Source of the DNA: Eutreptiella sp. 'Long Island Sound 2002'
Taxonomy: Eukaryota; Euglenozoa; Euglenophyceae; Eutreptiales; Eutreptiaceae
NCBI GenBank assembly: GCA_964036045.1
Contig: OZ038382.1
Span: 129,952,556-130,016,555 of the forward strand
DNA: 64,000 bases
Direction of reading: 5' to 3'
How positions within the stretch are numbered: position 1 is the first letter of the stretch; every line of letters starts with the position of its first letter. This document shows positions 3,022 through 60,542 of the stretch, piece after piece. The translations under genes were made by a program, and so were the position numbers. The notes beneath the pieces are model-generated. The model was not told the DNA's origin. It did no database searches and worked only from the letters and a program-made list of their open reading frames with translations.

Positions 3022-3960
3022 TTGTGCTTGTTCCTTGTATTTGTTTTTGTCCTTGCTGATTTTCGAAAAGTCAAAATAAGGTCTACAGAAAAAGAAAGTA
3101 GAGGCAGTCCAGGCACCGGATCAATGAAAACAGGCTACCTCTCTCCACAATCAAAACATGTGTACCAAAGAGGGGCTGCAGATGGACAGTGCAGGCTGAA
3201 ATACAAAGCTTCAGTCGCATATGGACAAAGCAAATGATTTTCTAATGAAACCTGACATTAGTCTGGCCACCAAGATAGTCCCTAGCACTTCATGTGAACC
3301 TTTTGACATGCAATGCAGTTGGTTCGGAATCTACGGCAGGTAGGTTGGGCCAGGAGCAGGATATGGCTGGCCAGCATGGCCAAGCAACTGAATTCAGAAT
3401 CAGTTAAAACGTAGAACCACATTAAGTGATAGAAACAATTGAGTATAGGGATCCTGAGGTGGGAGACCACTAGGCCTAAAGGCCTAAGGCATGAAGTGCA
3501 TATTTTTTTTCAGTATTACCTCCGTGACTCACTTGAGTGGTAGGGGTGAACTTCATGCGGAGGCTAGGGTTATAACCCTAGTGACTTTGAAAAATGTACT
3601 TAAAGCCTCAAAAGAGTGATAAAAATGATCAAGTGGTAGTCTGAATAACTTCCCAAGGATTGTGGGCGGCTTGGCCTGGATCAAGTACCCCAAGGAAGAC
3701 ATGGTAGTGACATTTTCCGATTCGCCCCTGGAGTACCAGTTGCTGAAGCTAGTAGAACCAAGAAAAAAGGCTCAAATTACCCCAAAATTACCTCAGAAAC
3801 TGCTTTCACACCAGCAAATGACACTCTCATCAGTTCATAGAAGCTTACTACACTGTACGTACCCTTGAAAAACAGTGTAATGTACCATGAATGATGTTCC
3901 TTCAAAGGGGCATTCCTCAAAAGTCGCCAGCGTGCAGCGAAAGTCTTTGGTAAAAATGTG
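3022..3960. other. Non-coding stretch with a short perfect palindrome
   Basis: No supportable gene. It holds an 18-bp perfect palindrome, CTAGGGTTATAACCCTAG, at 3,564-3,581, and AT-rich sequence around it. Only short open frames without protein character are present. Confidence 0.4.
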
Positions 3961-17512: not shown

Positions 17513-18103
17513 TTAGTCGGAAGCGTCGGTGCGCAGGACGAACCCTCGGTCGGGATCCACGAGGTGCAGACCCACTGCGGATAGCAGCGCCTGCTTCATC
17601 CCCTCAAAGGCACGGTCGGACTCATCATTCCAGACCAGAGCCTTCTTGGACCCCTTCTTGGTCTCCTCTCGGTTGCCCTTGACCATGGTCGTCATGGGGG
17701 CTGCATACTCGGCATACATCGTGATATACCCCGAGTAGTAGTTGCAGAACCCCAGATACGCGCGTAGCTCAGAGACCGTTTTGGGCTTTTCCCAGTGCTC
17801 GATCGCGGCCACCTTGCCAGGTATGGGCTTTCGCTGCCCGTTCCCGACTACATGGCCAGCAAAGACCACCTCGCTTACCGCAATGGTGGCCTTGTCACTG
17901 CTGCCCGTGAGTTTGTGCCGAACCAGAAGGTCCAGCACTCGAGTGACGTCCCTTTCATGTGCCTCCAGGAGCTCCTCGTAGCTCATACTGGGGTCCCCGG
18001 ACGCGATGATCACGTCGTCCACCAAGGGGTCCGCACAGTCACGCACCGGCTCAAGCAGGTTCTCCAGCATCCGCTGAAAAGCCGCAAACGCCGTTGGTAA
18101 CAC
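17513..18103 (-). pseudogene. Gypsy-1 reverse transcriptase, palm/thumb half
   Basis: Continues RT after a one-base frameshift near 18,090 (an extra G in AACGGCG converts the expected NAFAAFQR reading to NGVCGFSA). It contains the catalytic box LVDDVIIASG (near residue 30), then LLVRHKLTGSSDKATIAVSE and the LGFCNYYSGYI segment typical of Ty3/Gypsy connection domains. It ends at the TAA inside TDASD-AVGAV, where RNase H begins. Confidence 0.88.
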
Positions 18104-20039
18104 CCATGGGCATCACCTTCCACTGGAGAGGTCCAAGTGGGGTGCTCATGGCTTTGCAGGCACGGGACTCCTCGGCGAGAGGCATCTGATGATAACCATG
18201 TTTCAGGTCAATCACCGTGAAGATCCTCCGCCGGTGTTGCTTTTGCAGCATGTCCTCAATGAGGGGCAGCGTATAGCTGTCGTGCTGCGTTTGGGCGTTT
18301 AGGCCGCGATAGTCGACCACGAGCCGCCACTCACCGGCCACCTTCTTGGGGACGAGGAAGCACGGAGAGGCCCACTCGGAGTGGCACGGCTCAAGCCAGC
18401 CTCTCTCGATGAAGTCACGGAGGTTCTTCTCCATGGCCTCTTTCCTCTCGCCCCTCAGGGCAAACTCCCGGTGCCGGTACACACGGGGGTCCTGCTTCAG
18501 TCGTATCTTGGCCTCGCCATACGGTCCACGCACCGGTGGGGGAAACACAGGCTTACCGCTGAAGAAGGTGTCACCATACTTCTGCTTCAGCCTGGCCCTC
18601 AATGCCTGAATCTTGGGGCAATCATCAGACTCTGCCTTGGCTTTTCTGGGCACTTGGACCACGGAGCTTACTTGAGGGGTAGCAACCCCACTCGATTTCG
18701 GCTCATATGGTCTTCCCAGGTGGCCCAAAGGGCCATCTCTGGTCTTGCCTCGGAACAGATCGCGGTAGGTGGGTGGGTTACCGCCAGGCGGCTCGTCCTG
18801 GCTGGACATGTGATCCAGCACCCTCTGAACGAAGGTATTGCCGTCATAGGAACCGGAGACGATTGAGTCCACTTCCCACCAGGCTTTGTCCTGGCCTTTG
18901 CCCTCACGCTGGTTTCCCCAGTTGTGAAAGGGCTGATCCATATACCCCTGAACCAGATCCAGCTCCTCTTCAGTGAGGGGGTCTTCCGATTCTCCGATGT
19001 CAACAGGGGGAACCGCAAAGCATTGCCTCCAAGGCTCCGCCACGATGCGGTTGACACACACGAAATCCGTGGCGTCGGCCTGATCAAGGCCCCGATCCAC
19101 ATAGTGGAATTCTGTTGGCCATCTCTGGGGTGGCATGGGCTGTCCCTTAGCGTCCTGATAGACACTCTCTCCAGCCGGTAGGACGACCTTGTTTAAGGTC
19201 ATGTTGGTCAATGAGGCTACCCAATGTCGGGTACTTTCCTCCTCGGTGCATCCCATAGGAACAACCAGCACTGCCTTGGAGCGGTCCTTGCGTATCTTCG
19301 CTACCGCCCTTGGAATGTCCCATCGAGGGCAACGGATCCACATCAAGCCCTGATGCGGACCCCAGTGCTTCTTCCACGCGGAGTCCTGGGCGCTCCAGTA
19401 CTTCTCACACACCCGAAGATGGGCGGAGGTTCCTGAAGAGAACGCATCCAGGGCTAGATCCGAAGCTCCCAAGTCCGCGACAACTCGACTCGCCACTTCC
19501 GGCCTTACGCCGTACTCCTGGTTTGCAGGACCAGTTGCCTCAGTGTCCAGTGCGGCCACTTTGAGCTGATTGCGTTCAGGGTGGATCCATTGGCATTCCA
19601 CATGGTGCTCAGGTGACGAAAGCCACGAGAGTTGGTCGTCCTGGTACAGGGTCATGGAGGCCTGGGCCGGGAGAACGCCGGAGTCCGTCTCCATCATGAA
19701 GTCGTACCCAACGATCATGTCCCAGTCCATCTCGGCCTCGTAGAAGCGACCGTGCAGGAGGATTTCCTTGCCGAGGTCTGGGCAGCTCAGCTCACGATGG
19801 TTCACAAACTGCAGCCCGATGGCCGCTTCCTTCGTGCCTCCCACCATGTACTGGCCGTTCGCCACCTTCAGCCTGACAGGTTTCTGACTGTCGGTCAGAC
19901 ACTCTGGTGGAAGTAGGCCAGCCTTGACCAAGCTGACTTGAGCTCCCGTGTCGACCAACACGTCGAAAACCTTTTCCACTTCCCCGCATAAGGCACGGAC
20001 CTTAAGATGCAACTGCCGCTCGCGACCGACACGGCGCAC
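18051..20039 (-). CDS. Gypsy-1 protease, methyltransferase-like domain and RT fingers
   Basis: 662 codons. The aspartic protease active site is VDTGAQVSLV (residues 29-38). Residues about 195-290 (LALDAFSSGTSAHLR, GLMWIRCPRWDIPRAVAKIR, KAVLVVPMG) resemble the degenerate Dam-like module of DIRS-type and some algal retroelements; its role is unknown. RT begins near residue 515, with EWASPCFLVPKK (555-566), VVDYRGLN (574-581) and the catalytic TVIDLKHGYHQ (608-618). It runs out at the frameshift near 18,090. The start is uncertain: the upstream 20,040-20,349 stretch continues in another frame (ELLERPEILSFARRAP) and probably links gag to protease. Confidence 0.85.
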   Translation of the reverse strand: MRRVGRERQLHLKVRALCGEVEKVFDVLVDTGAQVSLVKAGLLPPECLTDSQKPVRLKVANGQYMVGGTKEAAIGLQFVNHRELSCPDLGKEILLHGRFYEAEMDWDMIVGYDFMMETDSGVLPAQASMTLYQDDQLSWLSSPEHHVECQWIHPERNQLKVAALDTEATGPANQEYGVRPEVASRVVADLGASDLALDAFSSGTSAHLRVCEKYWSAQDSAWKKHWGPHQGLMWIRCPRWDIPRAVAKIRKDRSKAVLVVPMGCTEEESTRHWVASLTNMTLNKVVLPAGESVYQDAKGQPMPPQRWPTEFHYVDRGLDQADATDFVCVNRIVAEPWRQCFAVPPVDIGESEDPLTEEELDLVQGYMDQPFHNWGNQREGKGQDKAWWEVDSIVSGSYDGNTFVQRVLDHMSSQDEPPGGNPPTYRDLFRGKTRDGPLGHLGRPYEPKSSGVATPQVSSVVQVPRKAKAESDDCPKIQALRARLKQKYGDTFFSGKPVFPPPVRGPYGEAKIRLKQDPRVYRHREFALRGERKEAMEKNLRDFIERGWLEPCHSEWASPCFLVPKKVAGEWRLVVDYRGLNAQTQHDSYTLPLIEDMLQKQHRRRIFTVIDLKHGYHQMPLAEESRACKAMSTPLGPLQWKVMPMGVTNGVCGFSADAGEPA

Positions 20040-20349
20040 GTCGTGCGAAACTCAGGATCTCAGGCCGTTCCAGAAGCTCAACAAGCGAATGGTGCAGGTC
20101 GTGGACAATGGGCTCAGGCTGCCCATCTGCAGCATTCAGCTGCGGTCCGGGTGATCCTCTGATACTCATCAAACACATTCTTGTTCGCGAATGACGGTCG
20201 GGTGCAAGGGTTCGTGCCCTCACTTGCCCTCACTCCGCCTCCGCGACTGGGTGCCGGACCGGGCCTTCCGCCCGCGGCAGTCCCTTTGTGCTTATCGACT
20301 CCCGACTGGGATGGTTCGGCGCTTCCCACGTCACCATCCTGCGACCGCC

Positions 20350-22692
20350 CTAGCTGGGGCCCTTGGCTGCAGGGGCTCCGCTAGGGGGCGTCGTTTGTGG
20401 AAGTAGGGGTGTTCTCCTCCGCATCAACCTCGTTGACGCCCTTCTTCCTTCCCCCTTTCTTACCCTTCTTGTCCTTGTCCTTGTTCTGGTCATTCTGGTT
20501 GTTCTCCTTGTTCTTGTTCTCCGACCTGGAGCCCAGTTCCTCTTGATCTCCTGGATCTCCTTGGCCAACTCGGTCCCCTGCGACACCAGCTTGGAGAGCT
20601 CGTCCCTGTCCACCTCCACCTTGGCTTCCCGGATACCCGCGGGCGCACGCTTCTTCGACCCGTGCGCCTTCTTGTAAGCCTCCGTGTCGGCCTTGTGGGT
20701 GGGGCATGTTCGTTGGTCATGGTTGAAGCCTTTCTTCCTCCCATAACACACGAAACAGCCCTGAGGGTGAGCTCGTATGAACTCCCCAAAGGACAGCGGA
20801 GGGTCGCCAATGCGGCGAGGGTCCCTCTTCTCCTTCTTCTTCCAACCCGGCTGCAGGGGCTTCCAGCTTCCCCGGTTGTTCCCCGCGCTCAGGTTGTTGG
20901 CCACAAAGGCGCAAACGGCCACCTCGGCGGGCTCATCGTCGTCGTCGTCGTCGACGAGAGTCTCATCGCCGTCGGCTCCCGCTGGGTCCATGGCAGCTTC
21001 CCCGCCAGGTCCCTCGCCAACGTAGTTGACGTCGCGGTCGCCGGGCCTCAACCCGCGAGTGTGGTGGAGGTTCCGGTACTCCTTGAGCACCTCCTCTCCA
21101 ACCCACTCCAGGATCTCGTCGCAGCTCATCCGCGCCGGGATGGCCTGCAGACGGATGGTCTGGCCGCTCAACTCACACTCGTCAAGGTGCCACATCGCGG
21201 TCTTCTCGCGATCGCCCGAGACGGTGATGAGGAGAGCGTTCCGCAGGGAGTGCCGTTTGACATCCCGGGCCACGTTCTTCCTCGTCCAAGCCACCACGTT
21301 CGTATGATACTCTTTGGGAAGCATCATCTTGACCGTGTGATTGGACTTGGCCCGCTTGGATTCCTCCTTGGTGACCCTCTTGATCCATGCTTCCGGCAGC
21401 ATGGAGAGCGGGCGAGCCTGCTCGTCACCCTCGTTCCAATCCTCCACGTTGCGGCGCAGGAGGGTGTAGTGCCCTCGGAAGTCTCGCCAGTCCCGTAGGC
21501 GAATCTCCCGTCCATCATGCTGAAGCTTGATGGACTTCCACCGCTTGGCCGCCACCTGCGGATCGTCCACCCGCTCCTGCTCGTTGAGCCATTTCTTGGC
21601 TTCCTTGAGGGTCTTGATTCTCCCCTCCTTGGTCGCCACGAAGTATAGCTCTCCGAGCACTTCCGGCAGGCGGTACCTGAACCGTCTGAAGACATACTTC
21701 TCCGCATCAGCGGGATGCATGTCCTCAGTAACGGTTACCCCCCAATCGTCCAGCTTCTCCAAGAAGCGGTCGTGGTTGAGGGGGTTGCTGTCGTACATGG
21801 GGGGCTTGATGTCCTTCAAGTCTTCCCACACGGCGGCATCCGCGGCCTTAGAGACCATGAACGCCGGCCGCAAGGTCGACCGAGGTTCCCATCGGCCTCT
21901 CCCACGGACTCCCACGGCCGCCACGTCCATCTCCTCCATGGAATCCCTGTGGCTACGCCGCGGTTCCTCCATGTACGCTGAACCCAGATGTTCACGCCGT
22001 ACTCCTTCCATGTATGCCTCCTCATCACGGCGCCGGCGGCTGCGTTCAGCGGCCTCCCGTCGTACACCACGCGGCGGGCTGATGTCGAACTCCTCCAGGT
22101 CCAGGTCCAAGTCCTCACCTTCGCCGACATCCCACTCCACGTCTCCTCTGTGGACCTCATCCCTGAGTCCACCATAACGTCCACCAGCCATTGGGATTGG
22201 GTCCGGAGCTGGTGCGGGGCGCCGGGGGCGTACCGGTGTCCGCCCTGGAGCACGGCGGTTGCGGTACTCCGCGCTGAGCCACTCATCACGCCAATCCTCA
22301 CTGCCACTGCCGGGCGGCACGCGCTCGTTGCGGCGGCCCGCGCTGCGGTGAGAGGGGGTGGTGAGAGAGGGGGCACTGGCGCTGGGGCGACTCCTGTGGG
22401 CTCCGCCGGGGGCGTGGGGTCTGCCTGGACCTGGTCCGGGTCCCCAGCCGTCGTCCGACGAGCCAGACTCCAGGGGTGGGTGGTCGCTGCAGACGCTCAC
22501 ACGGGCTTCCAGCGCGTCCAGCCTCTGCTGCAGGCCGCTGATGACCGTGTTCAGCTGCCTGGTCTCGGCCCTGGCGATGTCCAGCTCTCTCTGCGCGCGC
22601 GCGGCGACCTTGGAGATGCGAGTCATCTCGCCCTTGCCCGTGTCTACCTCGCACTCGAGGAACTGGACCCTCCTGCGAGGTAGACAATCCAC
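20350..22692 (-). CDS. Gypsy-1 Gag (capsid and nucleocapsid)
   Basis: 780 codons. An N-terminal coiled-coil-like stretch (ISKVAARAQRELDIARAETR ... LQQRLDALEAR) is followed by a basic, disordered P/R-rich region. The central capsid-like segment starts near NPLNHDRFLEKLDDWG and includes RFRYRLPEVLGELYF and a tryptophan-rich helix region. A zinc knuckle near residue 670 reads CFVCYGRKKGFNHDQRTC (CX2CX8HX4C, a slightly long spacing) and binds genomic RNA in this family. The C-terminus is basic with RTRT repeats. An acidic run of aspartates precedes the knuckle. The frame is intact. It overlaps the preceding proline/glycine-rich frame by about 50 bases. Confidence 0.85.
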   Translation of the reverse strand: MDCLPRRRVQFLECEVDTGKGEMTRISKVAARAQRELDIARAETRQLNTVISGLQQRLDALEARVSVCSDHPPLESGSSDDGWGPGPGPGRPHAPGGAHRSRPSASAPSLTTPSHRSAGRRNERVPPGSGSEDWRDEWLSAEYRNRRAPGRTPVRPRRPAPAPDPIPMAGGRYGGLRDEVHRGDVEWDVGEGEDLDLDLEEFDISPPRGVRREAAERSRRRRDEEAYMEGVRREHLGSAYMEEPRRSHRDSMEEMDVAAVGVRGRGRWEPRSTLRPAFMVSKAADAAVWEDLKDIKPPMYDSNPLNHDRFLEKLDDWGVTVTEDMHPADAEKYVFRRFRYRLPEVLGELYFVATKEGRIKTLKEAKKWLNEQERVDDPQVAAKRWKSIKLQHDGREIRLRDWRDFRGHYTLLRRNVEDWNEGDEQARPLSMLPEAWIKRVTKEESKRAKSNHTVKMMLPKEYHTNVVAWTRKNVARDVKRHSLRNALLITVSGDREKTAMWHLDECELSGQTIRLQAIPARMSCDEILEWVGEEVLKEYRNLHHTRGLRPGDRDVNYVGEGPGGEAAMDPAGADGDETLVDDDDDDEPAEVAVCAFVANNLSAGNNRGSWKPLQPGWKKKEKRDPRRIGDPPLSFGEFIRAHPQGCFVCYGRKKGFNHDQRTCPTHKADTEAYKKAHGSKKRAPAGIREAKVEVDRDELSKLVSQGTELAKEIQEIKRNWAPGRRTRTRRTTRMTRTRTRTRRVRKGEGRRASTRLMRRRTPLLPQTTPPSGAPAAKGPS

Positions 22693-23318
22693 CGCCAGGT
22701 GGTATCCGGGTCGCCGTTCCCTGGTGGGTCGTCGGGGTCCCCAGGGGGTCCTCCAGGAGGGCCTCCGCCGGGTCCGCCCGGTCCAGGGGGTCCTCCCCCG
22801 CCCAGTGGTCCGCCTCCAGGGGATCCACTTGGTGGGGGTCCTCCAGGGGGTCCTGATGGTCCTCCGCCAGGGGGTCCCGATGGGTCTCCGCCGGGTCGCC
22901 TCGGTGGGTCCGAGGATGGGCGCTTCTTCGTGATGCCGAAGTCCATGTCGTCATCCTCGTCCATGTCGCCCCACCTGGGCGTCTCGGTCTCGGAAGACTC
23001 CGAGCTCCGGTAGGGAGGAGGGAGATCCTCATCCTCACCTTCCGGTTCCATGGGGACGTCTCCGCCTCCTCCGCCCGTCCAAGCCACCACTTGGCGATGT
23101 CGGCGGCCTCGTTCATTCCCGTCGCTGGCGGTGAAGAAGGGGTCACTGTCGTGGGGGTGTCCGCCCGCTGACCTCCGTGGCCTCTCGGGGGTCTTCCCCT
23201 TACCCTTCCTCCGTCGGTGGGCGGTGGGGCCACTGCTCCCACTGCTGCCCGTGTCGGCCTCGTCCAGCGTCATCTTGGAGGAGGCGTCCCCTTCGAAAAG
23301 CTTTCGAAGGGTCTCCAC
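22644..23318 (-). CDS. Gypsy-1 Gag-linked glycine/proline (collagen-like) region
   Basis: 224 codons starting METLRKLFEGDASSKMTLDE, then basic and acidic low-complexity sequence and a long run of GPP/PGG triplets (for example GGDPSGPPGGGPSGPPGG) between about 22,710 and 22,920. It sits between the N-terminal coiled-coil frame and the main Gag frame, so it is probably part of one Gag polyprotein now broken by frameshifts, although a separate small ORF is possible. Collagen-like stretches are disordered or form multimers. Confidence 0.55.
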   Translation of the reverse strand: METLRKLFEGDASSKMTLDEADTGSSGSSGPTAHRRRKGKGKTPERPRRSAGGHPHDSDPFFTASDGNERGRRHRQVVAWTGGGGGDVPMEPEGEDEDLPPPYRSSESSETETPRWGDMDEDDDMDFGITKKRPSSDPPRRPGGDPSGPPGGGPSGPPGGPPPSGSPGGGPLGGGGPPGPGGPGGGPPGGPPGDPDDPPGNGDPDTTWRWIVYLAGGSSSSSAR

Positions 23319-32381: not shown

Positions 32382-32523
32382 CGGCTTGGGTTTGGGGTCG
32401 GGTTTGGGGTTGGGGTCCGGTTATAGGTTGAGGAGGACCTCTGTCCAGAGGTGTGAGGGCGCCGATGTCGGGTCGGGGGTCTTCCCGGTGCGTTGCCGGG
32501 GTGCGTGAGTTGCCTGTGTCTTA

Positions 32524-32542
32524 GCCCACGCAAACTGCACCC
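32524..32542. repeat. Element P left terminal inverted repeat
   Basis: GCCCACGCAAACTGCACCC, an exact inverse of 39,313-39,331. Directly outside is TTA on this side and TAA on the other. Confidence 0.88.
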
Positions 32543-32680
32543 TGTTTTGCGCGCCGAACGCGCAGAAAAAGACCGGTTCGCAACAGGGCAAAAGAACTAT
32601 TTTTTTGGATGTTTGACGAACGTGATTTTAGACGTAGGGAAATAAATTGCTTCTCTAGTGTTCTGCAACTCCGCGCTCCT

Positions 32681-33113
32681 CAATGCGAGGCCTCGCGCAC
32701 TCAAGATATTCAAAGTAGAGTTTATCACGAAACCCAAACACCCGTAAGGACTGGCGTTTGCGGAAATACGCAGCTCGGTACACGGCATTAAAAGTAGGGC
32801 TGTGTTGCCCACGGAGCATTGGAAGTGTAGGACTGTTCGACTTCCCATGTTAGGGGAAACACGTATACTGTAAAGTGAAAATAAACTACAAATTTAGGCA
32901 CCCTGAGTGCGCGAGGCCTCGCGCACTGAGGTCACGTTATGTATTGAATTTGCAGAATGGAAATAACGCGTAGAAATTGTAGGTACGGTACCAGACGGAC
33001 AAACACATTTGATTTTTCGGGTGTATGTGTGTGTAGACACCATGTTGGTCAGATATAACAAGGCATAGAACATTGTCCCACGGAAACAATCAGTGCGCGA
33101 GGCCTCGCGCACT
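32681..33113. repeat. Palindrome copies 1-3 of Element P (left cluster)
   Basis: Copies at 32,681-32,702 (left arm degenerate, AATGCGAGG), 32,906-32,927 and 33,092-33,113 (both perfect, core GTGCGCGAGGCCTCGCGCAC flanked by A and T). They lie between the left terminus and the first gene. The rest of 32,543-33,580 has no supportable coding sequence. Confidence 0.92.
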
Positions 33114-33580
33114 CAAACGACGGAAGAAAATGAAAAAGCAGGCAGGTCAGGTCAGGCACGCCGGTATTTACATTCCCTTTCACGGCTGCCACCTGTGACA
33201 GTCGATTCTACATCGGTAACCTTCGTCATATTTTTCAGGGGATCAGGGGAATGATTTGCTTTTTTTCAACAGCCACTCAATGGCAGACGTGTCCGCTTCT
33301 AATAGCGGCCATAGCCTTCGCTGCCCGATAGATATGGTTTTTTCTTTCCAACTGGGTTTACAAAAGGAAACAGAATAGGAAATTGTGGTTGCGAAAACGG
33401 TTTTCGGTTACTGGGAACGGAGCGCACGCAGACACCAAATACAATCTGCGGCGGCACGCGCACCAGAAATGACGACAGGAAAAGGCCAGATGTTTTGAGA
33501 CACATTGTTTTTAAAGATCGCTGTGCGAAACGATAACCAAAATATGTGGGTAAATCTAATTCCACAGAGAAAGACGCAAA

Positions 33581-35577
33581 ATGCCACTTCGAGGCAGAAA
33601 ATCCGTAACGCATCAGATGATAGCAGAAGTAACCAAAGGAGCAGCAGCACTACGAGAGGCATGCGCGGCAGAACCAGCATACCAAACAGCAGACGACCTG
33701 TGGAAAGGACTCAAACGAAACGACCTGGCGGCGCAACTGGTGTTAACATTTGCACAGCGACTAAGGTTCAACAAAAGAACGCGCCACAGTCCCTTAGCAG
33801 CTAAAAGGCAGGGGGACAAGCGCTGGGTGCGCATTTTGCGACAGGAGGGCTCGAATCTGTACCTGTTGATGCGTCAACGGGCAGTACCAAACAGGAAAAG
33901 ACCAGAAAACAAAACAGGGTACCTAACACAAACAGAAGGACGAACAAAAGTACGACTTGGGCAAGCAGACGCTGCCGCAGATACAGTGGACGAACAGGCA
34001 GCAGCAGCACTTAAAGCAAGTGGTCACTGGTGCTTTCGTCGTGTTGCGTGCTGTGGATAGACAACTGGTACCGGGCACAATACACGACACACCCAGACGA
34101 AAGTGACCGGTGACAAAACTGTACTGCAATAGCAGTACTTCAACTGAAGCAGAGGCCCACGTATTGGGCAGGACATCCAGCCGTTGAGGACCTAGCAGTG
34201 CGGATAACGACAGTGGCAAGGGCTCTGCAACATCGTGAACGAAGAATCCCCCAGACTTTGCGTGACATGGGGTATGCAGATGGGTGTACACCAGACACCG
34301 GAAACGTGAGAGCACCGTTGGATGTGAGGAGGGATGCAACGACCGTGCAGGCACCGGTGTTGCGCCCGTTTGCCCTGTCAAAAGAAAAGGTAACTGGTGG
34401 TGTTGGTCTGTTAAACTTGTTACACTTTGCAAAGGACGTAGCGCAACAGACAAACAGAGTTTTCCCGCTGTTGGTTGACGAGAACATACACTACAGGATA
34501 CTAAGGTTGTTGTACGGTGCCAAGAACCAACGATGGAACATGCGTGCGTACCTGCGTTACGTGCCTGTAGTTTACGGTGTCTGGCATGCCTACAAGTTCG
34601 TTGTTACTCATACTTTTCGGGTGTTCTGGCCCATTCTAACCTACCTACGGAAAGGTCTGCTACGACCTGGTTCCACCATACTATCATACCCCAAACTAAT
34701 AGTTATGGAAAAAACTATTGCTGCGCTGATGCTTGCCACCCCCCGAAGACTACGCCCGTATCGGCGCAAGGCACAAGCTGCAACCGCGATCAGTGGTCGT
34801 GACACTGCGCATGCCAACAGGGCAGCAGTGGCAAACGCAGTCTTGCATTTGTTGTCGGAATGGTGCCCGTTGGTGTTGTACTTGGGCCACGTGGTACGGG
34901 AATGCAACTGGTCAGGGGAAAACAACAGTACAGGGTCACGAGCCCAGGAGGTGTTGCAGTTGAGTTTGTGTTTGTTGAGGAGGCTGCGTCGAGGACCGTG
35001 TGACACCGTACTGAGGTACGAACGCACGATCATGTGCACATTGCTGTACAACAGCAAGTGGCACCAGGACCTGCCCGGTCAGGCACACTCAGAGGAGTTT
35101 GGAGAAGGGATGTTGAGCAAGTTGGTGCGGGACAAGGCGAGAAACACGGGTTCTGTTACTGTTGAGGAGGTCGAAAACAATTACTTGTTACTAAAGGTTG
35201 GTCCTGGTGGCAAACGCGTGGGGTTGCAAAACGTTCCCAAGAACCTGGTACACAGCATGCGACAACGACTGACAAGACTTTTGGCGACAGACCGAATTTG
35301 CATGGGGTATGTGGAATGGGAGTCGGCCAGAGTCAGCACCGTTGCAACTTCGTGGCCGCGGAGGTTACCGAGATTTCCACCCTCACCTACACAACCCCTT
35401 GGTTACGACCACTACCGGCTACTTGGTCACAGCATACTGGATGCCCTCATTGACCAGAAAAAAAATCCCACCAACCAACTGAAACGGAAACTGGATGCTG
35501 TTGTGGGGCGGAGAACAGATATGGATGCCGACAGACAGGAAGCAGCAACACGCAACGTGCGGCAACACTTGCGGTAA
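33581..35577 (+). CDS. Element P gene A, unknown protein (626 aa, two exons)
   Basis: Exon 1 33,581-34,019 and exon 2 34,136-35,577, with a GT..AG intron of 116 nt. The join keeps frame (phase 1), and the exon-2 frame is open upstream of any ATG (QRPTYWAGHPAVEDLAVR), so the exons belong together. The N-terminal third is basic and helical (SVTHQMIAEVTKGAAALREA). The middle has LVDENIHYRILRLLYGAK, then YVPVVYGVWHAYKFVVTHTF, and later SEEFGEGMLSKLVRDKARN. The D/E-ENIHYR, GVWHAYK and EEF motifs could be part of a transposase active site, but that is a guess. No family recognised. The frame has no internal stop. Confidence 0.7.
34020..34135 (+). other. Gene A intron, closed by a long hairpin
   Basis: Donor GTGGTC at 34,020 (or GTCACT at 34,023, same phase), acceptor AGCAG at 34,131-34,135. 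Inside, GTCACTGGTGCTTTCGTC (34,023-34,040) pairs with GACGAAAGTGACCGGTGAC (34,096-34,114) with one wobble and one bulge. The left arm begins at the donor, so the RNA would bring donor and acceptor close together. Confidence 0.6.
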
Positions 35578-35588
35578 CAGACGCCCGC

Positions 35589-35667
35589 AGTGCGCGAGGC
35601 CTCGCGCACTAAACGTTGCGAAAAACAGGTATGTAATGCGATGTGAGTGCGCGAGGCCTCGCGCACT
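35589..35667. repeat. Palindrome copies 4-5 of Element P (between genes A and B)
   Basis: Two perfect 22-bp copies at 35,589-35,610 and 35,646-35,667, just after the gene A stop. Copy 5 lies between a strong donor-like CAG/GTATGT (35,629) and CCTTAG (about 35,691), so it may sit in an intron of the gene B 5' untranslated region. The remaining 35,668-35,826 holds no gene. Confidence 0.9.
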
Positions 35668-35826
35668 GAGTAGTTCGCTAAGTGCCTTAGATTAAGTCAC
35701 AACAGAGATAGTTGTGGAACAGATGTGCGAAAATGACCTGCAAAACACCGTTTCGACTGATTTCAGAGTTCAAATGACCGTGTTTCAAGTCGTGCCATTT
35801 GCCCTTTTTAGGTATCTTTTGGCATC

Positions 35827-38776
35827 ATGAGTGAACCAGGGTCGCCAGAACGTCCGGCACCAGACACAGAGGCCATGGAGTCGTCACCAGGGACCGACCA
35901 AGGGGACACACCGAAGAAAGGACGCAAGAAGAAGGGTGAGAAGAAGCCAATACCGGAGATGAAGATCACAGTCGACGTGCAACAGTGGTTGTGGCAGGAG
36001 AATGGTAAAGCCGTGAAGGTAAAGATTGCTGATTTGAGAGTTGACAAGACCAAGGAGCGCGGACAGATCCGATCCATCAACTATGACGATGTTGCCAGGA
36101 AAGTGACGGGATACCAAGCACTGCCACCAGCTGGACCGTTGCGCGTAACGGCGTGGGAGGATAGTGGTATGACTCGCTTCGCGTTCGATCGAAGACGTTT
36201 CTTCTCTTTGCTTCGGTACATGGTTTGCTTTGCAGATGCCTCCCCTTACGTTCTGAATGGTCAGCATGGCACAGAAACATGCAGAAAGATTCAGGAACTG
36301 CGTCTCGCAGAAGGTAAAGAATTGGAGGACTCGCAGGAGTTTTGCTACGTTGACATTCTGAAGTACGAAACACCTTGGAGGATCCGGGCCAAGGTTGCAG
36401 GATTGCAACAAGCTGGCAGCCAGTCTGTGACGTGGATTCCGCTGTCAGAGGCGCTGGACAATATGTTGTTGTACATTGAGGACCAGAAGCGGGAAAAAGA
36501 ACCACAAGATTTCGAGCGGTTCAAGACTGCTGTTGTCCAGGCCGCCGTCAACTCTGCGTTTCTTGCACCTGAGGCTTTGGAGGAAGCAGGACACACAGTA
36601 TGTATTCGTGTATCGCACAGTTATAATGCGCCAGGCCTCGCGCACTCCATGGCATTGTTTTCCCTTGCAGGACTCGACATTCAAGAACTGGAGGGACATC
36701 TTCTCCCTGGCGTATTACTGCGGTCGTGAGGCGGTTACTGGCATGAGAAACCTCGAGAATAAGAGCAGGAAAGGTGAAGTTACAAGGAATGCCTACAAGA
36801 AGCTGGAGGGGCTGCATCTACCGAGCTTATTGCGGAAAGTCTGTGCGCACATGAACCTGAAGGACTCGACCTTACGCACCACCCGGAACTACATTGACGC
36901 GCAGATTACGGATCAATGGGTTACTTTCCATCTTGACAATCCGGACAATAAGCAGTATGTCAACCAGACGGCAGGTATGCGTCAGTGTCGCAGCTTCAGT
37001 GCGCGAGGGCTCGCGCACTCAACCACGGTTTTCACATCCGTACAGCTGCCGATGCAAAGATCCGAGCAGAAGTCGCAGCACTTGGCACACCGCAACTGAA
37101 AATTGGGCTGGCAAATTGGGGTTACTGGCCGGATACAAGTATGAGGTATCGGTCGCCGTGGCCAAAATGGAAGACGTTGCTCAATGCACCTCTGTGGCGG
37201 ACTGGGGACAAGGGCGCACGTCCATTACCACAGACGCTGGCCGTGCGGAAACAACTGCAAAGGAAGACTGAGGCACCATCATCGGCAGCGTCACAGACAC
37301 AGCTGAGTACTGGCGATGTGATCAATGTCTCCAAGCAGGACGAGCAAGGGAGCAAATTCTCTTTGACGGCGTGCTGTATTGAGGATATTGGAGAGACACC
37401 GCCAGCCCGTTTCCGGGATCTGCAGTACCCATTGTGGGTCATCAACGCTGACCTTTTCGTTGAATATGACACTGCAGGATTTGTTCCGAAGTGGCTGTTC
37501 GATGTGATGATGCTGGGGAAAGACCTCATTTTCTATGGCGAGGCTGATGTTGTGCACCGTATTGGCCGCGACATCCAGAGGCTCTGGCGTATGGAGAAGG
37601 ACAAGGATCCAACCACAGTGCCATTCTACCAAGTTCGGTTGCCGGTATACTCTTGGTTATCGGGTCCCGTGACCAGAAGTACGTATCAGTTCGACGAGCC
37701 CTGTATGTGGATCGGAACAACGAGTCGCTGGGATAAGCAGGTATATCTGCTTCTTTCGCCTGTTACGATGCCGTTCTGTGCGCGAGGCCTCGCGCACTGC
37801 TGCCTCCGTTATTCGTCTTTATACATCACATTTACAGTTGCCGAACTATGTGTCGTATTCCGCTGGACATTTCGAAGAGATGCAGAACAAGAACCTTGGT
37901 GGTTTCATGCCTCTGATTCACGTGCTGTGGTACCTGGGCAAATATCCTTTGGGCAGTGGGTATTCTGATGCAGTGGTTGTTGTGGACGACACACCTGCCA
38001 TGGCCGCAAAAATTGCGATGTCCGACCGACGTACTAAAGTGGCGTTTTTGGCTGTGTCAACGATCAAGCAAAAGGACCTTGGGAATGCCGGTGGAGGTGC
38101 TCTGCAGCATGCAATCATCATGCGGTACATGTTGGAGGCTGATCAGACGGAGCAGAGAGCAACAGCTGCACCTTGGGATACTCAAGAAGAGTGGCTTCAG
38201 CGTGGCATTCCACTGTGGGCTTTGGACAGCAACCGAGGGCATGAAGGGCACCAGCAGGTGCATGCTGCAGAGGCCGTCCAGGAAGATGTCGTGACTGAGG
38301 CCCCCGCTGACGACACTGAGCCTGTTGCGCCTGCACCTGCTTTGTCAATGCAAGCCAAGGTGAAGAAGACTGCCAAAGTTATACCAACTCAGAGTACTGC
38401 AGCCGGAAAGGGAACCCCCTCGAGTAGCAAGAAGCAGGCAAAAGGAAACGAGAAGGAATCGGACAAGCCCACGGAATCAGACGACGATGATACGGACGAG
38501 GAGGAGGAACAAGAGGATCCGGAGCAAGTACTGGAGACCCAGCAGAAGCGCAAGCGGGCAGCCGCCGCTCACTTCGATGCAAGCCCCGCATCTGGTAAGG
38601 AACAGCTGAAGAAGAAAGCGAAGACTGCAGCCACCGCTAGTGCAGAGTTCAAGCCGCCCTCGCGTTCTGGTGCCCAGCCGTCTCGTGGTACCGTTGCCTC
38701 TCCAAGTGGGACAGGTGTGGTGGCAAGAAGCCTGGGTTCAAGGTTGTCTAAGGTTGCCGCACCGAAGAAGAAGTAA
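35827..38776 (+). CDS. Element P gene B, unknown protein (902 aa, four exons)
   Basis: Exons 35,827-36,597, 36,671-36,974, 37,046-37,740 and 37,838-38,776. All three introns are GT..AG and short (73, 71 and 97 nt), and the joined frame is open throughout (257 + 333 + 312 codons). The N-terminus has a nuclear-localisation-like KKGRKKKGEKK (residues 30-40). Residues about 45-560 look globular (VQQWLWQENGKAVKVKIADL; AFDRRRFFSLLRYMVCFADA; FRDLQYPLWVINADLFVEYD; FYQVRLPVYSWLSGP). Exon 4 adds GGFMPLIHVLWYLGKYPLG and DAVVVVDDTPAMAAKIAM, then a disordered tail with an acidic DDDDTDEEEEQEDPEQ block and lysine-rich patches. No family recognised; a nuclear DNA- or chromatin-binding role is inferred from charge only. 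Confidence 0.78.
36598..36670 (+). other. Gene B intron 1 with palindrome copy 6
   Basis: Donor GTATGT, acceptor CCCTTGCAG, 73 nt, phase 0. Palindrome copy at 36,625-36,646 with two changes in its left arm (AATGCGCC). Confidence 0.85.
36975..37045 (+). other. Gene B intron 2 with palindrome copy 7
   Basis: Donor GTATGC, acceptor CCGTACAG, 71 nt, phase 1. Palindrome copy at 36,998-37,019 with one central change (GGGC for GGCC). Confidence 0.85.
37741..37837 (+). other. Gene B intron 3 with palindrome copy 8
   Basis: Donor GTATAT, acceptor ATTTACAG, 97 nt, phase 0. Palindrome copy at 37,777-37,798, perfect except for the first base. Confidence 0.85.
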
Positions 38777-38819
38777 GCCACCATTAACCCAAATGTTTCT
38801 CCTGGTTTTTGCAGTCATG

Positions 38820-38999
38820 TGTGCGCGAGGCCTCGCGCACTCGCCTTCGACGCGAATGCAATTATATGCCCTTAAGCGCTTGTACATTTTTGCCGAGCTT
38901 TTATTTCAGTGTTTGTATATTGTGTGCTTTCTGTCTTGTTTTTGTTCCCTTCTTACACAATTGTTTCCATGACCTTGAGTGCGCGAGGCCTCGCGCACT
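38820..38999. repeat. Palindrome copies 9-10 of Element P (3' region)
   Basis: Copies at 38,820-38,841 (first base changed) and 38,978-38,999 (perfect), downstream of the gene B stop and before the right terminus. The rest of 38,777-39,312 is AT-rich with no gene seen. Confidence 0.92.
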
Positions 39000-39312
39000 C
39001 GGGGACATAAAAAAGCAATTTATTTGACATGACAAACATAGGTGCAACTGGAGACCTGCAGAATGTCAGTTTTGAAAATGAGCTTCCGAACAGGCACACA
39101 CCAGTTGGGTTTTGAAATACAAAAACGACAAGATTGGTAAAACACACCCTTCAAATCAGAAAAAATAATAGCCTATTTTAATTAAAAAAAAAAAGCAGCA
39201 AATTGGGTAAAATTGTATTTTTTCGGTGGTATCTGGGTCATGTGTGTTGCAAATGTCCAAAAAAAATAGTTTTTCAGGCGGTCATTTTTTAGGTCCTTCT
39301 CTTCCAAAACGG

Positions 39313-39331
39313 GGGTGCAGTTTGCGTGGGC
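39313..39331. repeat. Element P right terminal inverted repeat
   Basis: Exact reverse complement of 32,524-32,542. The LINE-1 minus-strand frame that starts at 40,261 reads across this terminus (LAHANCTPV), showing that the element lies inside that LINE. Confidence 0.88.
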
Positions 39332-39342
39332 TAAGTGTGTGG

Positions 39343-56063: not shown

Positions 56064-56860
56064 ATGGGACACGCTCACTACGTGCCTCTGGAGCTACGGC
56101 CCGACGGGTGCTGCAAATACCCAGCAGACGCCAACGCCAACAGACGGACACGTGAGCAATACCTCAGGTTTACGCCATGACACACCCTGCAAAATTTTGC
56201 GGAGCGACCTCATGTGTTTCCTCAGGCACCGAGATACACCACCCACCCCCACGGCATTCACTGCCCCCACACTACGCAATCTCCTCTCCTCCCACTCCTA
56301 CTCAATGCATGCATTTCACAATTGGTCTGCGATTTGCGTTGGTACCCATCGTTTAGTCAATGCCCTGCGAGCCGCAGCATGGTACGCAACGCTCCAACTC
56401 GTGCTCCGCCTCCTTTACATCCCGCACGTTCTCAGAACTGCACCCATAAGCCATGACACCAGGGTATCCCCTTTGTGCGGCTCACCACGTAGTGCGCCAC
56501 GACATCCACTTGCCCTGCCCCACAGCACGTCCGCACTTCGCACAACCCTGCCACAACCAACCCCCCTGCTGCAGCCACCCTCCATTGTTCCAGGGCCGCC
56601 TTTCGAGACGTGCACCTCACTGCCTTCGCCCACCAACGTAGCCCCATCCCAGGCATGCCCTGTGATTGATACTACCGATAACAACTCCAATGTCACACAA
56701 ACAGTGCATTCTGCAACCCCCCCCCAATCCATACCTGCACCCCGGTCACCTGATAAGACTGCCTCCACGCCTTCATTCCCCCCCCCCCGTCCTCAGCACC
56801 GCCAAATCCACACAATGAACCGCACCCTCCCCTGTTCAGAGCACCACCCACTGGGGATGC
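56064..56860 (+). other. LINE-2 spacer between ORF1 and endonuclease
   Basis: C-rich DNA with one long open frame (55,924-56,880, P/T/S-rich) and protein-like pieces in other frames (for example KYPADANANRRTREQYLRF). It probably encodes the disordered start of ORF2 with frameshifts. No domain seen. Confidence 0.4.
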
Positions 56861-58030
56861 CCTTTCCCACGCGTCCCTGAACGTTGGCGGGCCGGAGATT
56901 ACCCCCAATAGGTTGTGCCATCTTCTGAATGGATTCACCACTGCCCCCCACACAATTAGCATACAAGAATTCAAACCTACCGCTACACACCATGTGAAGG
57001 AGTACGAAAGGGTTGCAATGTTTTGGAAATATCACCTACTATACAGCGCCCCCACTTCGAAAAACGGTGTTGCACTTTTCGTGCACACCTCAATCTCTCC
57101 AATACCCCCGGCGCTCACCGTACACATACCTGGCATACTCATCTCCACACAGCTGCATCTCCACCCTGACCCCTTGATCCCCCCACTGAGGATTGCCTCA
57201 TATTACGGCCCCCATACCATGACAGAAAAACGTCGATGCGAACCAGTCCTCAACTCCCTCCTCCGGGAGGCATGTATCATTCTCGGCGACTACAACTGCA
57301 CCACCCATCACTCTCACGCCACCACTCTCACATCTAATCTCTGGCCCTGGCTCATAGCCAAGGAGCGGTCGGGAGCCCTGAGTGATCTACTCCTACCCTT
57401 CACCACCTCCACCCCATATACGCGGGTTAGGCGATATGCTGGTACTAAAAGCTACATTGACCGTGCTTATGGTACCCGTTTGTACCAAGCCTGCTACAGC
57501 CCCTCATCTGCCGAAGTGGTAGATTTTTCTAAAGTGCATGGGTCTTCAGATCATGACCCAATTATCATCCGCTCCATTCCCTGGACCACCCCCCAGATAC
57601 CTGAACCCAGATGTGCACAGTGGAACCGCCGTGACCTGCACAAATTCCGTTCCCTCATGGAACACTCTGTGCATGACCTACAGACCCCCACCAGCTTTCA
57701 CGATGTGGAGTCCACGTACCACACCCTTGTACAGCATATGCTCCACGCAATGCGCACGGTAAACTCTGCCAAGCCAGCCCTCCAGACCAATTCCACAGAT
57801 ATTTCTGACTGGCACCAGGTGGTCAAGCAGCTGACCCGGCAGGCCAAGCGTCGGTCCAAAGTGTTCTACCGACGTATCAAACACACCCTGCTTACTCCTC
57901 CTGCTCCCTCCACCCTCCCCGTACCCTCCCGCAAGATACAGCGCATTCTCCAGCGTAACTCCCCCTGGAGTGCACGTGCATCTGAGCTCATCACCCCCCA
58001 GCCCTTACTGTCTGACCCCCCCCCCCCTCT
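56860..58030 (+). CDS. LINE-2 endonuclease (EEP) domain of ORF2
   Basis: The frame is open before the first ATG at 56,913 (LNVGGPEITPNRL). Catalytic motifs of the apurinic-type endonuclease: TISIQEFKP, LRIASYYGPHT, CIILGDYNCTTHH, KSYIDRAYG and HGSSDHDPIIIRS (the SDH box is intact). It nicks the target to prime reverse transcription; the A-rich target here agrees with that. The frame is lost at a C-run near 58,016-58,027, where RT continues in another frame. Confidence 0.88.
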
Positions 58031-58787
58031 GTGGAGGAACTCCGCATTCTGGCGAAGTCCTCCCGGAAAAAGTCCCCTGGACCCGATGGCGTGCCCCCCT
58101 ATTTGATTGCTGTCCTCCCAGATGCTGCCTTCTCCATAGTACATCAGTGCCTCACACTGTGTTATGATGTTGGAGACATCCCCCACAGCTGGCTTGTATC
58201 AGAGACCCTGTGCATATTTAAAGGTAAAGGTTCCTGGAGGGATCCTGATAGGTGGCGACCCATTGCCATGAGCAATTCGGTGTACCGGCTGCTCATGCGA
58301 TGGATCTATAAAAAACTGTATCCCCTCCTCCCTCCACAACTTCACCCGCGCCAGTTTGGTGGGCGACGAGGCGTCTCAACTGCCCATGCCACACAAACCT
58401 TTTTTGATGACATTGACAATGGCACCAGTTGGGAATCCATCTTTACCTTTGACATGTATCATGCCTTCGACAGTCCACCAAAAATACTCATCAGGGATGT
58501 ACTCCAACGCATGGGGACCCCCACCAAGTTACTGCTTTTAATTTCCACGGTACTTGAGCACGGGTCCACATACATCAGGGGTACACCGGAACCACGGCGT
58601 GAAACAGGGGTGCCCCATTTCCTGCTTCCTTTTTGTCATTGTTTTCGAAATTCCTCTACGCTATATACACTCCCACAATATACTTTTCTCCGCCTATGTC
58701 GACGACATCTCCACCCCCGTTGCACATACGGATGGTCCCAGAGTCGCCTCCATTGTCCAAACTGGCCTCAACCTGATCGGGTGCTAA
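58031..58787 (+). pseudogene. LINE-2 reverse transcriptase
   Basis: RT motifs in order: KKSPGPDGVPPYLIAVL, FKGKGSWRDPDRWRPIAM, RQFGGRRGVSTAHA, the first catalytic aspartate in FTFDMYHAFDSPP, then after a one-base shift near 58,575-58,600 HGVKQGCPISCFLFVIVF and the catalytic FSAYVDDIS. An in-frame TAA at 58,785-58,787 precedes LNVRKSE, a conserved RT segment, so it is a mutation inside the protein and not its end. Confidence 0.87.
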
Positions 58788-60542
58788 CTGAACGTTAGAA
58801 AAAGTGAGTCCCTCCCTGTATCTCCACACTGTACTCCCCCCCCCATGCTCCCCAAGTATTCACATCCGCCCTCACCCCTGCAGGTCTCCGCTGATTTCTG
58901 GGTCCCAGAGAGCTGTTCAACGTGGCCAGACTGGGCAGACTCCACCGAGTACCCCATGGCCAAGGTATCTCACCTCATGCACTTGGGACATCCCATCCCA
59001 AAAAACTTCGATGTCAGCCATGCTTTCCAGCTGATCTTTAGAGAACTACAGGCCCAGCTCGCGGAGCTTAACGCCCTCCCCTCTCAGTCACTTGACAGGA
59101 TACTGGTAGCCAACACATTGATCCTTCCCCGCCTGCTTTACCGATGTGAATGCCTCCCCCTATCTGCCGACCAGCTGAATCCAATTATCCAAGCCATTGA
59201 AAGATATGTGCTTGGAGTCGCGGGGTTACCCTCCCTTCTTGCCAAGAAAACACTGTATACCCACCATACTCATGGCTTGGGATTACGCTACTTTGCTGTT
59301 GTACAGCCCACCCGCATACTCGACTCCCTGCAGACCAACCCACACCTCTTCCACCTCAGCACCCAATCAATATTTCCCTTATCCCCCTGGCGTCTCTTCG
59401 CCACTGCCATTACCCTGCTTGGCCCCCCCCGCGCCTCCCCCATGATCCCCCTCCCCGTCTCATGGGGAGCGAAACGCGCCTTGCGGGGTGCCTCCACAGT
59501 GATCACCGAATCTGGGATCACAGCATACATCTTGCCTGGACCCAACCCCCCCCCAGACTGCACCTACACTGATGGCAGTCAACTTGGTACCCCCCCTGCC
59601 TCAGGCGCATGTGCACTCCTCCCCGATGGGCGCATAGTCGTCTGCCGCGTCCCTGGTCCCCCCAACTCGTACAAGGCAGAGGTTATTGGTATCCTCCTTG
59701 GTTCAGAATTTTCCCCCCCCTCATCCAAAATCAAGGTTGACTGCAAGGGCGCTATCTCCTCCACCACAGGAGACAGGCGCCCTCTACGCTATGCTCATTA
59801 TGTCCAGCTGGCCAGGAAGTCCATCCAAAGCAAATGCCATGCAGTAGAATGGATTGAAGGTCACACGGGCCACCTCTTCCAGGAACGATCCGATGAGTTC
59901 GCCAAGTACGGCTCCACTCTCCCCCTCCCCCCCCCTGCCAAACCTTCCTCCCCGTGGGACGTCGTCCGCCACGGCGAACTCATGTCCCCCCCACACAAGG
60001 TCTGGACACACGACCTGTTTCCTACACACACACACGAGAATTTCCATTCTTCCTCATGGCGACCACTCAAATTTCGTCGCTTGGCGTGGCATAAGTGGCT
60101 CTTTGGCCTCCATACCCGACTGGGGTACAGCCACTATGCAACCTTCTGGAAAGATGATGTGCCCCCCACCCCCTGCCCCCACTGTTCCCTCAGACACAAC
60201 ATGAGCGTCCACGGGTACATAGCACACTGCTCGCCCGCGCACCCACTCGTCCATGCGTGGACAACTGCTTGGCCCGTCTCCTCCACTCCCATCAGATGGC
60301 GAGCCACTGCCCACAAACGTGACCTCAGGATCACTGGGCGCCTTGCAATTCCGATTTCGCTTTTTCGTGCCCTGAGCGCCGCCCACGGTGGCCCCAGGGC
60401 AGCCAGAAAAATAGTGTATAAGTGGCAGGAGAGCGTGATGGATAAAGTGACTGATGCCCTGTCTGACTACATCCCAGCCCCATCGTCCAAGCCCAATCCA
60501 TTTACCCCATCCGATCGGAATGTCACCTCCCGACCAGTTTGA
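58788..60542 (+). CDS. LINE-2 RT thumb/connection, RNase H and zinc-binding tail
   Basis: Same frame as the YVDD part. The connection region (VSHLMHLGHPIPKNFDVS, LLYRCECLPLSADQLNPII) leads to RNase H with all four acidic positions visible: CTYTDGSQLG, SYKAEVIGILLG, IKVDCKGAISS and QERSDEFAKYG. A CX2C...H...C cluster (PCPHCSLRHNMSVHGYIAHC) follows, as in LINE-1 of this window. It ends at a normal stop (60,540-60,542). Confidence 0.87.
   Translation: MNVRKSESLPVSPHCTPPPMLPKYSHPPSPLQVSADFWVPESCSTWPDWADSTEYPMAKVSHLMHLGHPIPKNFDVSHAFQLIFRELQAQLAELNALPSQSLDRILVANTLILPRLLYRCECLPLSADQLNPIIQAIERYVLGVAGLPSLLAKKTLYTHHTHGLGLRYFAVVQPTRILDSLQTNPHLFHLSTQSIFPLSPWRLFATAITLLGPPRASPMIPLPVSWGAKRALRGASTVITESGITAYILPGPNPPPDCTYTDGSQLGTPPASGACALLPDGRIVVCRVPGPPNSYKAEVIGILLGSEFSPPSSKIKVDCKGAISSTTGDRRPLRYAHYVQLARKSIQSKCHAVEWIEGHTGHLFQERSDEFAKYGSTLPLPPPAKPSSPWDVVRHGELMSPPHKVWTHDLFPTHTHENFHSSSWRPLKFRRLAWHKWLFGLHTRLGYSHYATFWKDDVPPTPCPHCSLRHNMSVHGYIAHCSPAHPLVHAWTTAWPVSSTPIRWRATAHKRDLRITGRLAIPISLFRALSAAHGGPRAARKIVYKWQESVMDKVTDALSDYIPAPSSKPNPFTPSDRNVTSRPV

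Follow-up and report, generated by a model that had tools for sequence, protein, structure and literature searches.

An identical palindrome dispersed along a DNA transposon of Eutreptiella, and the case for its serving as a set of dyad binding sites

Why should a DNA transposon carry the same short palindrome ten times, in its flanks, its spacer and its introns alike? The question is raised by an element located in a 64,000-nucleotide stretch of the genome of the euglenophyte Eutreptiella sp. 'Long Island Sound 2002' (GenBank assembly GCA_964036045.1, contig OZ038382.1, positions 129,952,556 to 130,016,555 of the forward strand), hereafter referred to as the window. An earlier note on this DNA had described a transposon with perfect 19-bp inverted termini, two spliced genes of no recognised family and ten palindromes, none of them outside the termini or in a coding exon; it had listed transposase-dimer binding, RNA hairpins that shape splicing, silencing or insulation signals and short parasites spreading inside the element as possible roles, and had suggested searching the host genome for the palindrome separately and aligning copies for shared positions. 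The analysis reported here favors dimer binding, since the palindrome is a family-specific, position-stable and constrained dyad. We consider it probable that the palindromes are dispersed cis-acting dyad sites for a predicted dimeric, most likely element-encoded protein, serving transposition and probably self-regulation.

The boundaries of the element are as follows:

32520..39335, plus strand: whole element, 6816 bp, with TGTGT (5 bp) on either side
32520..32542, plus strand: left terminal inverted repeat (TIR) CTTAGCCCACGCAAACTGCACCC, perfect, 23 bp
39313..39335, minus strand: right TIR, perfect inverse of the left end, 23 bp

The perfect termini, which start with CTTAGCCC, extend over 23 bp (32520-32542 and 39313-39335) and not over the 19 bp first described, and their columns differ in 0 of 1127 pair comparisons among the aligned DNA copies. 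The target site duplication (TSD), compared by eye, is 5 bp long, varied in sequence, and exact in eight of the nine copies with both ends read (the window copy and those designated L005/L020, L006, L007, L011, L015, L017 and L021), with L008 matching at four of the five bases. With perfect TIRs and a fixed-length TSD, the element is a TIR (cut-and-paste) DNA transposon, as had been proposed.

Ten copies of the palindrome, the 20-mer GTGCGCGAGGCCTCGCGCAC, lie between the TIRs, seven of them exact. They are placed as follows, with no strand assigned:

32681..32700: palindrome 1, degraded here (2-bp loss)
32907..32926: palindrome 2, exact
33093..33112: palindrome 3, exact
35590..35609: palindrome 4, exact, directly past the gene 1 stop, read through in the database proteins P0013 and P0023
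35647..35666: palindrome 5, exact, in the spacer that separates the two genes
36626..36645: palindrome 6, in intron A of gene 2, two mismatches here, exact in L005, L011, L017 and L018
36999..37018: palindrome 7, in intron B of gene 2 (site B), one mismatch, a central G for C common to all nine aligned copies
37778..37797: palindrome 8, in intron C of gene 2, exact
38821..38840: palindrome 9, exact, 3' of gene 2
38979..38998: palindrome 10, exact, with 337 bp between it and the right end

Nine sites were detected at three or fewer mismatches, all of them within the element, and 0 in 100 shuffles. The remaining site, at 32681, has lost 2 bp and shows four mismatches when aligned without a gap; in the near-full copies this site is exact in L007, L011, L017 and L021, carries one mismatch in L008 and is missing from L005/L020. 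A scan of the window for further copies found none outside the element, the next-best 20-mer having six mismatches, and of the eight perfect palindromes in the window that reach 16 bp or more, all but one are the element's own sites. Half-site counts over 98 sites (from the window and L005-L019) gave tgAGTGCGCGAGg. The palindrome borders are sharp, the 20-mer being bordered by A at 94 of the 98 sites and by T at 85, with a weak TGA...TCA extension. A 26-bp dyad built on that TGA...TCA consensus was considered and rejected, its outer triplets diverging at a neutral rate (0.109), and only a core of 20-22 bp is claimed.

The position of these sites relative to the genes of the element can be read from the following models, in which intron copy counts include the window copy and refer to the aligned copies that cover the intron:

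33581..35577, plus strand: gene 1, encoding the transposase (~665 aa), one exon in relatives but with a frame break at ~34020-34130 in the window copy
35827..38776, plus strand: gene 2, exons 35827-36597, 36671-36974, 37046-37740 and 37838-38776, 902 aa, no Pfam match
36598..36670, plus strand: intron A, 73 nt with GT-AG borders in each of 8 copies
36975..37045, plus strand: intron B, 71 nt with GT-AG borders in each of 9 copies
37741..37837, plus strand: intron C, 97 nt with GT-AG borders in each of 10 copies

Coding sequence accounts for 69% of the element, yet all ten sites are noncoding (P 8e-6 if randomly placed), and each of gene 2's three introns holds one site (P ~0.015 for uniform placement in noncoding DNA). 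We attribute the absence of sites from exons to the damage that an extra 20 bp would do to the proteins. What the earlier note had said of the palindromes within the window, namely their number, their confinement to the element and their avoidance of coding exons, is thereby borne out.

Beyond the window, the exact 20-mer occurs 3608 times in the host genome (G000, 2.28 Gb), and a reversed-pattern control 0 times. Fifty of the 3608 exact places were listed, all of them on a single contig (C1) and grouped in 15 loci (L005-L019), every one of which was fetched. The separate search placed all 50 inside full copies, fragments or derivatives of the element, with no free palindrome outside element copies among them; four places that seemed solitary turned out to be a truncated copy (L009) and three non-autonomous elements (L006, L015 and L016). 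Two of the loci, L012 and L013 (~10.98 and 10.99 Mb on C1), are partial copies 12 kb apart; both have the same three palindromes from the left part, with the same flanks, and one is joined to a right end while the other breaks off.

Alignment of the copies revealed that the sites are shared. At four or fewer mismatches, ten of ten sites occur at matching positions in the window element and in five other near-full copies (L007, L008, L011, L017 and L021, of which L021 has ~85% identity with the element in the window), and a sixth, L005/L020, has nine of ten, lacking the leftmost. A protein-level sample of 114 database proteins, open frames that read through the introns, extends this result. The intron C site is covered by the alignment in 69 of the 114 and retained in 64 of these, 62 with at least four of the six palindrome codons in the window's frame and two (P0167 and P0173) whole in another frame, the remaining five being damaged. 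The intron B site is kept in 17 of the 17 copies that align across it (in another frame in P0095), and its central base change appears in the translation of most protein-level copies. Exact central symmetry is therefore unneeded, site B having the same central change in all nine aligned copies. Copies whose exons are as little as 65% identical still have palindromes at these positions. One protein, P0089, has a 34-residue insertion just ahead of the palindrome in intron C, with the flank partly repeated, a possible recent insertion.

The sites are also constrained in sequence. In a DNA alignment of 10 sequences, some of them partial, pairwise divergence was 0.039 in the palindromes, 0.106 in adjacent noncoding DNA, 0.084 in other noncoding DNA, 0.0735 in coding sequence and 0 in the TIRs; within introns it was 0.044 in the palindromes versus 0.104 in the remainder, the latter near the third-codon-position rate. 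Changed CpG pairs numbered 16 of 319 within palindromes, versus 42 of 257 in adjacent sequence. Across 67 protein-level copies, identity in the palindrome codons was 0.88, whereas the divergence of the flanking intron sequence predicts 0.72; for the eight copies that have diverged most, the corresponding values are 0.79 and 0.45. The sites diverge two to three times more slowly than adjacent noncoding DNA, a constraint approximating that of first and second codon positions.

A further line of evidence comes from a non-autonomous family, of which three copies were read:

L006 4748-5959, L015 3968-5167 and L016 to 5125: derivative copies, 1.2-kb non-autonomous family

Between these derivatives and the full element, the left ends match over 29 bp and the right ends over 82-148 bp (64-74% identity), and three palindromes are shared; the further similarities, among the matches listed, are anchored on palindromes. 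The distance from the left end to the outermost palindrome is 198, 197, 197, 197 and 196 bp in L007, L008, L011, L017 and L021, respectively, 161 bp in the window, where bases have been lost, and 199, 199 and 188 bp in the derivatives. At the right end the corresponding distance is 337-344 bp in seven full copies and 345 and 344 bp in two derivatives. Past the first 29 bp, the left interval has no detectable similarity between the full and derivative classes, and its spacing is either selected, or inherited while the intervening sequence decayed. A duplicated stretch of ~120 bp contains two of the derivative's three palindromes, which shows that local duplication can increase the number of sites. 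The single-base changes in the derivative's second and third palindromes are common to its three copies.

In the mechanism that we propose, a dyad of 20-22 bp (AGTGCGCGAGG/CCTCGCGCACT) would be bound by a dimer, putatively encoded by the element itself as the gene 2 product or as the N-terminal part of the transposase. The outermost sites, ~197 bp from the left end and ~343 bp from the right, may help to pair the ends for cut-and-paste transposition. At the inner sites, in the spacer between the genes and in all three gene 2 introns, the same protein would repress or roadblock transcription of the element or, alternatively, hold the element body together by compaction.

Several observations weigh against this proposal. 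The gene 2 product has no Pfam match, so that an element-encoded binder is putative only, and the binder could be a host protein. Known end-binding repeats sit near transposon ends, and half of the sites of this element lie deep inside it. Immediately outside the 20-mer, the three flanking bases on each side show neutral-like divergence (0.109), and constraint therefore ends at or just beyond the 20-mer; seven of the 69 intron C sites score below four of six residues, five of these being the damaged ones. The derivative evidence comes from one family of three copies, one of them without an end, and its equal spacing could be inherited rather than selected. As for conservation, L005-L019 were chosen for holding an exact palindrome, which inflates the DNA-level estimates; the protein sample is less biased, but its query held palindrome codons and it admits only copies with a frame through the intron; and the copies are interrelated, not independent, and therefore no P value is attached to conservation.

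Other explanations account for parts of the same evidence. Silencing or insulation, also among the roles suggested in the earlier note, may yet be involved. A host insulator, silencer or activator recruited by the element would shape chromatin or expression and have no role in transposition. The spread of the sites over introns, spacer and flanks agrees with such a factor, as do the putative standing of an element-encoded binder and the CpG-rich composition of the sites, whose CpGs are kept (16/319 changed) as a chromatin or methyl-sensitive factor would want; yet each of the 50 listed places falls within a copy of the element, a fragment or a derivative, and the gene-less derivative keeps sites at the same distances from its ends, and we regard a host protein as unlikely, though a serious alternative. 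We are more skeptical of a role in DNA structure, in which perfect palindromes would extrude cruciforms, pause replication or serve as sites of recombination. Perfect dyad symmetry, repeated many times and found in most copies, is what such a role would predict, but site B has a non-palindromic central base in all nine aligned copies and in most protein-level copies, many sites carry single uncompensated changes, and the sequence itself, beyond its symmetry, is identical at every site.

Two of the roles suggested in the earlier note fare worse still. For RNA hairpins that would aid splicing or RNA processing of element transcripts, what stands is the presence of one site in each of the three gene 2 introns (P ~0.015), together with the variation of site B within the central 4 nt, which would form the loop. 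However, seven of the ten sites lie outside introns, both flanks included, a derivative without these genes has three sites, the introns fold with unremarkable stability (z +1.22, -1.72 and -0.59) and changes in the stem are single and uncompensated, which leaves hairpins weakly supported and, in our judgment, improbable. The least credible explanation makes each palindrome a 20-bp mobile self-parasite with a TNA target duplication. It draws on the sharp borders of the palindrome and on the identical TNA triplets found on either side of five of the ten window sites (TCA/TCA, TGA/TGA), and is opposed by the persistence of the same positions even at 65% exon identity, by the lack of any copy outside the element among the 50 listed places and by the fact that no clean empty site was seen. 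Over the 98 sites, 49 are TNA-flanked on both sides, with triplets direct in 23, inverted in 21 and otherwise arranged in five; direct and inverted triplets being about equally frequent, a TNA-duplicating, self-inserted unit is largely refuted. The palindrome is very unlikely to be a spreading mini-parasite, because no TSD surrounds it, and for the same 98 sites no TSD of the repeated unit was found that would indicate a mobile palindrome similar to introners or miniature inverted-repeat transposable elements; site positions are inherited.

The proposal of dyad sites for an element-encoded dimer leads to the proteins themselves. Relatives P0001-P0003 read straight through gene 1 as a single exon, and we therefore treat gene 1 as one exon and the window copy as broken; a gene 1 intron at 34020-34132, present in our first model, was discarded when relatives were found to translate the region as protein. 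Of the two spliced genes of the earlier note, gene 2 stands as such, with its three introns, and gene 1 does not; both are indeed of no recognised family, gene 2 having no Pfam match and gene 1 no Pfam transposase match. In both genes, third codon positions diverge faster (0.098-0.111) than first and second positions (0.034-0.070), and both have thus been kept by selection in the spreading lineage. No Pfam transposase family was matched at E up to 10 by any of 10 transposase members, which returned unrelated weak matches only (best E 0.0091), and a sequence search of solved structures gave one weak unrelated match for gene 1 (1rty, E 0.003) and one for the gene 2 alignment (E 0.51). The transposase has conserved D161, D300 and E506, and its structure model is closest, among the matches listed, to the P-element, Hermes (hAT) and RAG1 transposases. 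Judging by this model, the transposases form a group without a Pfam family that appears structurally near P, hAT and RAG. Distant relatives encoded on other contigs (P0055 and P0057-P0062, 25-41% identity to P0002) represent a wider group, likewise without a Pfam family. The viral contigs searched contain no exact palindrome and no exact TIR, and no encoded relatives were found in the viral contigs, prokaryote genomes or phages searched.

Comparison with established superfamilies did not yield an assignment. P elements and hAT elements generate 8-bp TSDs, and the TSD here is 5 bp; no P-type transposase sequence was recognisable with Pfam at E up to 10, nor was any hAT Pfam domain matched. Transib and RAG elements do generate a 5-bp TSD, as this element does, but their TIRs begin with CAC, whereas those of the element begin with CTTAGCCC, and no match to the RAG1 core was found in Pfam. 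The target duplication of piggyBac is TTAA, and the 5-bp TSDs found here vary in sequence. Transposons do carry repeated binding sites near their ends, but to our knowledge the dispersal of such sites through introns and spacer differs from what is seen in known transposons.

Among the literature covered, the nearest design is that of En/Spm (CACTA; TnpD, TnpA), which also combines two genes with an element-specific short repeat. CACTA elements are defined by a TIR beginning CACTA, TnpA is a regulatory protein binding subterminal repeats of 10-20 bp units, and En/Spm-related elements keep subterminal regions around unrelated interiors (PMC8195511). The repeats of En/Spm are thus subterminal in that account, whereas here the dyads extend along the whole element, introns included; moreover, the TIR of the element is not CACTA, its TSD is 5 bp and its proteins match no Pfam transposase family. 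Muta1 and other Mutator-like elements with subterminal repeats resemble it in having a repeated 12-bp motif and non-autonomous members that share little, most of them the TIR only, but there the motifs are tandem within long TIRs, with a TSD of 8-9 bp, and not dispersed through introns (PMC5225508). Mobile genomes with the same short site scattered along them are also found among the mycobacteriophages, in the cluster A stoperators (PMC4351075) and in the 17-bp palindrome of cluster O, a third of whose sites are in coding regions (PMC9283540). The likeness is an analogy of function only: these are bacterial viruses, stoperators are asymmetric, and cluster O sites are partly coding, as those of the element never are. 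The element is a member of neither the En/Spm nor the phage stoperator and cluster O systems. A search of the open-access literature, to the extent that its texts were covered, returned no description of this element, nor of dispersed internal palindromes in a DNA transposon, among the matches listed.

Several features of the surrounding sequence may be recorded. The element lies inside a long G-rich stretch (window 28001-52000) with GC up to 0.72 and a GC skew mostly of +0.2 to +0.34; the element's own GC (~0.53) and skew are lower, and TTAGGG/TTTGGG-like runs are located directly to its left. An 18-bp AT-centred perfect palindrome at 3564-3581, CTAGGGTTATAACCCTAG, is unrelated to that of the element and resembles back-to-back telomere-like repeats. 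Two LTR-retrotransposon-like frames lie on the minus strand, one at 18054-20051 with a reverse transcriptase match (PF00078, E 3.6e-13) and weak aspartyl protease matches, the other at 20353-22950 without a strong match, and non-LTR retrotransposon-like frames at 56757-60539 on the plus strand match an endonuclease/exonuclease domain (PF03372, E 3.5e-7) and, weakly, RNase H. No Rfam families or tRNAs were found in the window.

A bolder version of the binding-site proposal, which we hold tentatively and think less likely to be right than wrong, is that the element represents an undescribed superfamily, with a P/hAT/RAG-like transposase, a 5-bp TSD and CTTAGCCC ends, and with an element-wide operator network through which a self-encoded protein would sense copy number, silence transcription of the body and pair the ends. 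If true, eukaryotes would thereby have their own equivalent of the repressor sites that extend across phage genomes. What sets the family apart is an identical dyad kept from end to end, in the flanks on both sides, the spacer and each gene 2 intron; with a short probe and two proteins, the assembly and self-limitation of a eukaryotic transposon would become open to direct test.

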